A stretch of DNA of 64,000 nt. Origin: Candidatus Methanomethylicia archaeon (GTDB lineage: Archaea > Thermoproteota > Methanomethylicia > Culexarchaeales > Culexarchaeaceae). Location of the stretch: positions 310,001 through 374,000 of the forward strand of contig JANXEO010000001.1 in the NCBI GenBank assembly GCA_025058215.1, written 5' to 3'. Position numbers and translations under genes: made by a program. The notes under the pieces were generated by a model that saw only the letters and a list, made by a program, of their open reading frames with translations, was not told where the DNA came from and searched no databases. Within the stretch, counting starts at the first letter, position 1, and each line of letters opens with the position of its first letter. Shown in pieces: positions 45,662 to 47,603 of this stretch.

Positions 45662-45970
45662 ATGTCTTTGAAATTGGATAAGGAATTACAAGTAATATTA
45701 AAAACTGGTAAAATGATTTTTGGTTCTAAAAGTGCTATAAAGAGTGTTAAGCTAGGGAAAGCTAAAATGATAATAATATCATCCACTATACCTAAGAATA
45801 TAAAGGAAGATATATTGTATTACGCTAAACTTTCAAATATTCCAGTAATCGAATTTAATGGATCGAGTTGGGACTTGGGATTTATATGTGGTAAACCATT
45901 TATGATATCAGCAATAACCGTACTTGACCCCGGTGAATCAGAGATTTTAAAATTGGCAGAGGGAAGGTGA
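45662..45970 (+). CDS. rpl30e: large ribosomal subunit protein eL30
   Basis: 102 residues. L7Ae/L30e fold: ELQVILKTGKMIFGSKSAIKSVKLGKAKMIIIS, AKLSNIPVIEFNGSSWDLGFICGKPF and SAITVLDPGESEIL. It sits between rpoA2 and the NusA gene, as in most archaea. Its 3' end provides the GGTGAT used by the next gene. Confidence 0.94.
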   Translation: MSLKLDKELQVILKTGKMIFGSKSAIKSVKLGKAKMIIISSTIPKNIKEDILYYAKLSNIPVIEFNGSSWDLGFICGKPFMISAITVLDPGESEILKLAEGR

Positions 45971-45976
45971 TGAGAA

Positions 45977-46411
45977 ATCCCCAGTATAAAATTAACAATA
46001 GATGAAATGCATTACATATCATTATTTGAAAGTTTAACGGGAGCAGTTATAAAAGATTGTATTTTGGATGATGAAAATAATAGGGTAATATTCATAGTTA
46101 GACAAGGAGATATGGGTTTAGCTATTGGAAAAGGTGGAGTTAACATCAGGAGATTGCAAAGCATATTGAATAAAAATATTGAAGTAGTTGAATATGCAGA
46201 AGACCCCGAAACTTTCATAAAACATGCATTAGCACCAGCAAGAGTTAAAGCTGTGAAAATAGTAAAATCACCTGATGGTAAAAAAGTAGCGCATGTAACT
46301 GTTGAACCTCAAGATAAGGGGATAGCTATAGGTAAGAACGGTAAGAACATTTTAAAAGCTAAACTAATTATGAAAAGGTACTTTGATATAGATAAGATTG
46401 CCATGACATAA
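45977..46411 (+). CDS. nusA: archaeal NusA-like factor (two KH domains), probable ATC start
   Basis: 144 residues if read from ATC at 45977. Two KH domains are visible, with GxxG loops GKGG (about residue 46) and GKNG near residue 121. The family N-terminus M-P-x-I-K-L-T-x-E-E-M is encoded from 45977 (I-PSIKLTIDEM), but the first ATG is only the Met at its end (46007). No ATG, GTG or TTG precedes it in frame after the TGA at 45971. GGTGAT at 45966-45971 has ideal 5-nt spacing to the ATC. RNA-binding elongation factor. Confidence 0.9.
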   Translation: MPSIKLTIDEMHYISLFESLTGAVIKDCILDDENNRVIFIVRQGDMGLAIGKGGVNIRRLQSILNKNIEVVEYAEDPETFIKHALAPARVKAVKIVKSPDGKKVAHVTVEPQDKGIAIGKNGKNILKAKLIMKRYFDIDKIAMT

Positions 46412-46444: not shown

Positions 46445-47170
46445 ATGCAGTATACATTTAATAGATTTATCTCAGCAAGGGCAAATATGGGTAAAGATGT
46501 TTTAATTGAGGGGAATTGCATAATTCTTGGCCCCTCAAATATAGGTGATAATACAATTATATGTGAAAATTGTATAATAGGCTATCCTAAGAAGAATTCG
46601 ATTAAAAAACTTATTAAAGAGAAGTCTATTAATTGGTGGAAGTATGATGAAGTAAGTGAAGGAACAAATATAGGAATAGGTAGTATTCTACGCTCTGGAA
46701 CTATAATATACGAGAACGTTACCATCGGAGATAATTTTGAGGGGGGTCACAGTATTCTTATCAGAGAAAAAACGATTATTGGAAGAAATGTTAAAATAGG
46801 TACAAACACGATAATAGATGGTGACACAATTATAGGTAATAATGTAAATATTCAATCATCAGTTTATATACCACCCAAATGTATTATACATGATGATGTT
46901 TTCATAGCTCCAAGAGTATGTTTTACAAATGATAAATATCCACCAAGTAAAAGATTAGTTGGCGTTGTTGTAGAAAGAGGGGCGATACTTGGAGCTAATT
47001 GTACACTAATTTCTGGGGTAAGAATAGGAGAAGGGGCCATTATAGCAGCGGGAGCCGTTGTAACTAAAGATGTGCCAAGCAATGTAATTGTAGCTGGTGT
47101 TCCTGCAAGAATATTATCCAATAGAAAAATTTTTGATGAAAAGAAAAGATTGTGGGAAGAACTTACCTGA
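46445..47170 (+). CDS. left-handed beta-helix acyltransferase (hexapeptide repeat)
   Basis: 241 residues made almost entirely of hexapeptide repeats ([LIV]-G-x-x-x-x: [50 protein letters not shown]), interrupted by a loop at about 50-75. The C-terminal [19 protein letters not shown] is typical of trimeric O- or N-acetyltransferases of sugar-modifying pathways. The acceptor is unknown. No Shine-Dalgarno precedes the ATG. It is not a member of the transcription/translation string it sits in. Confidence 0.82.
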
Positions 47171-47603
47171 GGGGTTTTTGTTTCTTTCCCTTTAATAATG
47201 CATCAAGTGATACACCATTAACTTTTATAACTTTATATCTAACCCCCGGAAGATCACCATAAGCTCTTCCTAACGATCCACCAATACCTTCTATTATAAC
47301 TTCATCGTGTTCTTCAACAAAATTAAGTGCACCATCTTTTGGTAGGAATGCTGTTACTTGTTTTCCATTTTTTATTAATTGAACTCTTACGCATTTTCTA
47401 ACTGCAGAGTTTGGTTGTCTGCTTTCAATTCCAACTTTTTCAATTACAATACCTCTTGCTTGAGGAGCTCCTTCCAGTGGATCTGCTTTTATATCTAACA
47501 TGAGCATTTTCCTTTTATAGTCTCTCTGAGACCATCTAAAATTTTTCCTCTTCATTTTTAGTTTCCTAGCTGCATAAACTCCTTTAGGCGATTTTGAGCC
47601 CAA
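47163..47603 (-). CDS. rps12: small ribosomal subunit protein uS12
   Basis: 146 residues, archaeal-length uS12 with the decoding-site loops ([35 protein letters not shown]) and PNSAVRKC. The start is TTG at 47603 with GGTGAT 3 nt upstream. In most archaea S12 lies between NusA and S7 on the same strand. Here it is on the opposite strand, downstream of the pyruvate oxidoreductase genes, and its end overlaps the acyltransferase end by 8 bp. Confidence 0.95.

Follow-up and report, generated by a model that had tools for sequence, protein, structure and literature searches.

The nusA gene in the analysed DNA very likely begins at an ATC codon at position 45977, an inference that rests on sequence alone and has no support from protein or ribosome-profiling data. 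The window, a stretch of 64,000 nucleotides (G000:C1:310001-374000), is part of an incomplete genome of 452 kb (46%). Its nearest public relatives are Methanomethylicota MAGs, Candidatus Culexarchaeum nevadense among them. The position of the codon, the conservation of the coding frame that follows it, the lack of alternative starts, the constraint on the middle T of the codon and the restriction of the phenomenon to a single gene are all shown by the comparisons described below. That nusA appears to start at this ATC had already been proposed in an initial annotation, which is supported and very probably correct, with conservation between species adding independent backing.

The nusA locus and its start region

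The gene is located in the order rpoA1, rpoA2, L30e, nusA and an acetyltransferase gene. Its upstream neighbour, encoding the 50S ribosomal protein L30e (45662-45970, + strand), was identified from the list of open reading frames and a match to NF002172 at 141.5 bits (cut-off 77). When read from ATC 45977, the nusA frame (45977-46411, + strand, ending with TAA at 46409-46411) encodes an archaeal NusA-like KH protein of 144 amino acids, which scores 183.7 bits against TIGR01952 (nusA_arch, cut-off 74.35) over profile positions 2-140 of 141 and thus meets the criterion for membership in this family above the curated cut-off and over the full profile. The product also contains the KH domains PF07650/PF13184 and matches a solved NusA structure (PDB 2cxc, E=7e-35) in an alignment that begins at query residue 5. 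Directly 3' of nusA we find a hexapeptide-repeat acetyltransferase gene (46445-47170, + strand) and beyond it rps12 (47163-47603, - strand); the window departs from the usual archaeal order of nusA followed by rps12, since the acetyltransferase gene intervenes and rps12 resides on the opposite strand.

The region preceding the inferred start is densely packed. A Shine-Dalgarno (SD) sequence AGGTGAT (45965-45971, + strand) is complementary to the 3' end of the 16S rRNA of the same genome (GGATCACCTCCT) and places ATC 45977 at a distance of 9 nucleotides from the GGAGG-equivalent, at a locus in a genome where this spacing is mostly 7-10 for genes with an aligned canonical start and an SD in both genomes compared. 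The TGA stop of L30e (45968-45970) is contained within this SD, in the frame of nusA and 6 nucleotides before the ATC, and it is overlapped by an ATG (45970-45972, + strand, within TGATG) that is out of frame and is not the start of nusA. The nusA frame itself is closed upstream by another TGA (45971-45973), with GAA (45974-45976) as the sole codon before ATC (45977-45979). From there the gene continues with CCC AGT ATA AAA TTA ACA ATA GAT GAA (codons 2-10, PSIKLTIDE, 45980-46006) before reaching the ATG at 46007-46009, which is codon 11 and the first ATG, GTG or TTG in this frame downstream of the TGA at 45971.

The initial annotation has in these respects held to the base, including its coordinates and codons, the location of the conserved N-terminus wholly upstream of the first ATG, and the spacing of GGTGAT (45966-45971) to ATC (5 nucleotides) and to 46007 (35 nucleotides). 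It missed the L30e stop inside the SD, located in the nusA frame, and the out-of-frame ATG covering that stop. Its evidence was local only, and the variety of NUN codons found throughout the class and the specificity for nusA emerged from other genomes.

Start codons in the class and the evolution of the N-terminus

Our sample of the class comprises 40 genomes, 38 of which contain nusA. All five family genomes (G000-G004) have ATC as codon 1, and so do two named public MAG contigs, L002 and L003, which may be identical to two of these five assemblies. Over the class, codon 1 lies outside ATG, GTG and TTG in 24 of the 38 genes (ATA in eight, ATC in five, TTT in five, TTA in three, and ATT, TTC and GTT in one each), and it differs between genera and even inside three of them (g7, g18 and g19). 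Among the canonical starts, two f6 genera use TTG, families f4, f7 and f8 use GTG or ATG, and f5 uses ATG. One family of the non-canonical clade (G008) has ATG. Every codon 1 in the class conforms to NTN, with CTN being absent. The arrangement seen in the window is no mere coincidence, since it recurs in every family relative examined and in most of the class, as revealed by the comparison with related nusA genes that the initial annotation had called for.

In 23 of the 24 non-canonical genomes the stretch from the upstream stop to codon 1 lacks any canonical codon, the remaining genome (G005) being ambiguous due to an in-frame GTG two codons upstream. The first canonical codon downstream is ATG at codon 11 in most cases, TTG at codon 6 in four and located at codon 46 in G003, and therefore no single downstream start could serve all of them. 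Since an SD (AGGTGAT or GGAGG) precedes codon 1 at normal spacing across relatives, the criteria for a conserved non-canonical start, namely the lack of a usable canonical start upstream or at the N-terminus (unambiguous in the 23) and conservation between species with a properly spaced SD, are met. Among the loci read, the pattern is systematic on that side of the class to which Culexarchaeum and Methanosuratincola/Methanomethylicus belong. In the loci read from other Thermoproteota, nusA nearly always starts with ATG, GTG or TTG, often TTG, the exceptions being L187 with ATC, L230 with CTG, L220 with CTG and an in-frame GTG upstream, and L185, which is unclear. In L187 (G151, Bathyarchaeia-type), ATC follows GGAGG at the place where congeners have ATG, and it probably originated independently.

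Changes counted by the Fitch method on a tree of RpoA2, L30e and NusA show that in the 24 non-canonical genomes the segment following codon 1 evolves as coding sequence under constraint at the protein level, with 51 changes at the nine third positions of codons 2-10 compared to 21 at the 18 first and second positions. At codon 1, the three positions have changed 6, 0 and 8 times over the class and 3, 0 and 6 times among the non-canonical genomes. As each of the positions -5 to -1 has undergone 4-8 changes, the invariance of the middle T reflects a constraint, whereas the first and third bases are loose. This rule is by itself no proof of pairing with an anticodon, because NTN codons also encode hydrophobic residues. 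Codon 2 specifies Pro or Ser in nearly all genes. Methionine aminopeptidase would remove a methionine preceding either residue. Removal of the initial methionine is thus expected from the identity of codon 2, and selection for a hydrophobic first residue is consequently unlikely.

Gene specificity and rival explanations

To what extent other genes share this property was addressed in a stop-to-stop scan of orthologs. All of G000 was compared with about 1 Mb of G001, and both were then compared with roughly 0.73 Mb of G011, which uses TTT. The rRNA region was masked, and a match required that both genomes show conserved residues, four of them identical, ahead of their first canonical codon. The 432, 336 and 231 pairs yielded 9, 0 and 1 matches. 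On inspection, the nine were mostly leaders or SD stretches that run up to a canonical start, besides one tRNA locus and the ambiguous A898, leaving nusA as the only convincing case; in the second comparison nusA, with 3 identical residues, fell just under the threshold. A positive control, in which TTG was no longer counted as a start codon, brought 25 extra matches in the first comparison, 34 instead of 9. A relaxed use of start codons throughout the genome, for which conserved N-termini should precede the first canonical codon in many genes, thus failed the criterion in these 432, 336 and 231 pairs, which contained only isolated and one-sided CTG candidates, and with no second gene resembling nusA in the scans we conclude that the start is specific to the gene rather than the consequence of a relaxed code. 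A changed initiator tRNA was not apparent either, with three CAU tRNAs and nothing odd in each of three partial genome sets. The absence of a genome-wide excess of non-canonical starts had been named by the initial annotation as an outcome that would refute its proposal; this outcome was obtained, and it removes the genome-wide reading only, leaving the nusA start standing because conservation between species supports the ATC independently.

Individual genes were also inspected. L30e has a canonical start codon (ATG, GTG or TTG) in every genome of the class. The gene for the initiation factor aIF1 was considered as a counterpart of infC that might itself start non-canonically, and this was rejected, since ATG or TTG was found at the expected place in the loci read (five of 30 loci were not recovered by the motif filter). 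The apparent start of aIF1 (SUI1) in family f6 is TTG (L238, L248, L249, L252, L256-L264 and L266), whereas ATG prevails in the other families that were read. Three further loci are recorded as observations in their own right. A gene for a hydrogenase/NADH-dehydrogenase-like large subunit (SYYMIPIGPQHPA...), at G000:C1:40604-41785 (- strand) and thus outside the window, displays an apparent CTG start with the SD GGAGGTGA, where G001 has TTG. A TruA-like gene at G001:C1:481914-482771 (- strand), within the 820-kb stretch that was read, has CTG after GGGGAGGG and TTG in its ortholog at G000:C1:144417-145241 (+ strand), which might represent a one-off CTG start. Finally, a conserved open reading frame at G000:C1:381612-382184 (+ strand) has the residues IRxFIVKFN ahead of its first canonical codon in G000, with GTT opposite to a GTG in G001, an unclear start and no obvious SD.

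The most conventional alternative would place the true start at the next canonical codon, ATG 46007 or the TTG at codon 6, and leave the upstream ten codons outside the protein. It is favored by the presence of ATG at codon 11 in most genomes, where standard gene finders would pick it, but we consider it very unlikely in view of the inconsistent location of that codon (11, 6, or 46 in G003), the constraint on codons 2-10, the presence of ATG or GTG exactly at codon 1 in class members with canonical starts and the lack of an SD before the ATG at codon 11. The methionine at this position behaves as an ordinary residue, as it is replaced by Leu, Ile or other residues in some homologs. A sequencing error or a frameshift, by which nusA would start from the overlapping ATG 45970 through an assembly error in CCCC or through ribosomal frameshifting, is all but excluded. 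One C fewer in the CCCC of the window would bring this ATG into the nusA frame, and an ATG is found at the same place in many relatives, which share it because L30e ends in GGA TGA or GGT GAT G. Yet an indel is rejected since close relatives read ATCCCA without CCCC and three loci (L003, L018 and L020) carry the ATG directly before TAA; a +1 frameshift is rejected for the latter reason and because the ATG is missing in several loci (L022, L023, L040, L041, L044 and L046). A base-call error at 45977, which the initial annotation had listed as a further way to be refuted, is excluded by the ATC of the relatives (G000-G004, and also L002 and L003).

The remaining alternatives accept codon 1 as part of the protein. 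It could be decoded like any internal hydrophobic codon (as Ile, Phe, Leu or Val), either through readthrough of the L30e stop, which would fuse L30e to NusA, or because a tRNA other than that for methionine initiates translation, in line with the hydrophobic nature of all NTN codons and with the shared frame of L30e and nusA in the window and in several genera. This is very unlikely, although not excluded, since readthrough in the window would have to pass two consecutive stops, CTN codons for Leu are missing, and in proteins with canonical starts residue 1 is a methionine before Pro that would be cleaved, hence no residue is conserved there. Moreover, the frames differ in other genomes of the Culexarchaeum family (where the L30e stop lies 13 nucleotides past codon 1), in genus g7 (with a gap of 4) and elsewhere, and a single readthrough mechanism would thus not suffice for all. 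Alternatively, the non-canonical start could be real but neutral, with coupling to L30e and a strong SD having made the identity of the codon unimportant and drift having followed. The conservation of the SD and of the tight spacing through the clade and the variation of the codon between and within genera would agree with such a scenario, which we nevertheless regard as unlikely. In the non-canonical families together with f5 (f1, f2, f3, f5, f6 and f9), ATG is found in one genome only and TTG in four, although AUG is one substitution away from ATA, ATC, ATT and TTG and purifying selection normally favours AUG (PMC5622118), the middle T has not changed once, and the scans revealed no further coupled gene that acts like nusA.

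Proposed mechanism, known systems and meaning

Throughout the non-canonical clade, the L30e stop is found between 13 nucleotides past and 6 nucleotides before codon 1 of nusA, and a strong SD is conserved within the 3' end of L30e. The spacing criterion for termination-reinitiation, an upstream stop within few bases of the start, is thus met, while functional coupling is inferred. In the mechanism that we propose, AGGTGAT would place the 30S subunit at ATC 45977, and this subunit would probably come from ribosomes that have just terminated on L30e, only a few bases distant. The initiator Met-tRNA, whose use is likewise inferred, would pair with its CAU anticodon mainly via the middle U and tolerate mismatches at positions 1 and 3, and the methionine would probably be removed after initiation. 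Selection may keep this start weak and the level of NusA low relative to the RNA polymerase and ribosomal proteins of the same operon, and a start-fidelity factor such as aIF1, whose role is untested, could possibly control it. Initiation by Met-tRNAi at NUN, positioned by the SD and by termination on L30e and kept weak to limit NusA, is likely the best overall explanation, its regulatory purpose being an inference. As a caveat, UUU, UUC, UUA and GUU each have two mismatches to the CAU anticodon, and to our knowledge there is no archaeal precedent for starts at these codons. It is also possible to read the strong SD and the proximity of the L30e stop equally well as compensation for a decayed start codon, without any regulatory role. 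A bolder version of the preferred explanation holds that at nusA only the middle U is read, with any NUN including UUU being fixed by the SD and termination coupling, and that this would constitute a lineage-wide homeostatic brake on NusA acting via aIF1-type fidelity, as an archaeal counterpart of infC and sigR; we lean against it.

Related arrangements are known from bacteria, where a strong SD paired with a non-canonical start serves control by IF3 at infC and sigR (PMC5472188). The infC gene, encoding IF3, starts with ATT or ATC, and its Streptomyces version with AUC (PMC5472188). It resembles nusA as a housekeeping regulator gene with a conserved near-cognate start, but it encodes another protein and is subject to autoregulation by IF3, whereas no effect of NusA on the choice of start codon is known, and the codon of nusA is not fixed and ranges over NUN including codons with two mismatches. 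Streptomyces sigR, starting with GTC (GTT in two species), has a conserved strong ribosome-binding site, is repressed by IF3 and was mis-annotated in databases (PMC5472188). It shares with nusA the two-mismatch NUN start and the strong binding site, and its start is kept weak to set protein ratios within the operon, a likeness that for nusA is inferred. It differs by its bacterial origin, by an IF3 dependence that was shown by experiment and by a far narrower range of codons; archaea have aIF1 instead, whose proofreading of initiation complexes recalls that of IF3 (PMC7531240). Termination-reinitiation coupling is described for overlapping archaeal gene pairs (PMC6728339), which, like L30e and nusA, have a start few bases from the upstream stop and an intragenic SD, but these pairs have canonical starts, and coupling between L30e and nusA has not been demonstrated. 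According to a review from 2020, archaea start translation at AUG, GUG and UUG (PMC7531240), and in the open-access literature searched, which leaves out subscription papers, we found no earlier report of a conserved archaeal non-canonical start, at nusA or elsewhere. The function of archaeal NusA has been described as unclear, with RNA binding being shown (PMC8116511).

Starts other than AUG, GUG and UUG are well documented at very few genes. Here, in one group of heat-loving archaea, nusA has moved among seven non-canonical codons while keeping the middle base constant, in a pattern that persists across many species. Gene finders restricted to ATG, GTG and TTG miss the N-terminus of the protein, and NusA would in the non-canonical genomes lose 5 to 45 residues. 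Since the class includes a cultured isolate, Methanosuratincola petrocarbonis LWZ-6 (PMC12244365), the predicted start is directly testable, and the essential-looking nusA of this class offers a natural experiment on the start-codon needs of archaeal initiation.
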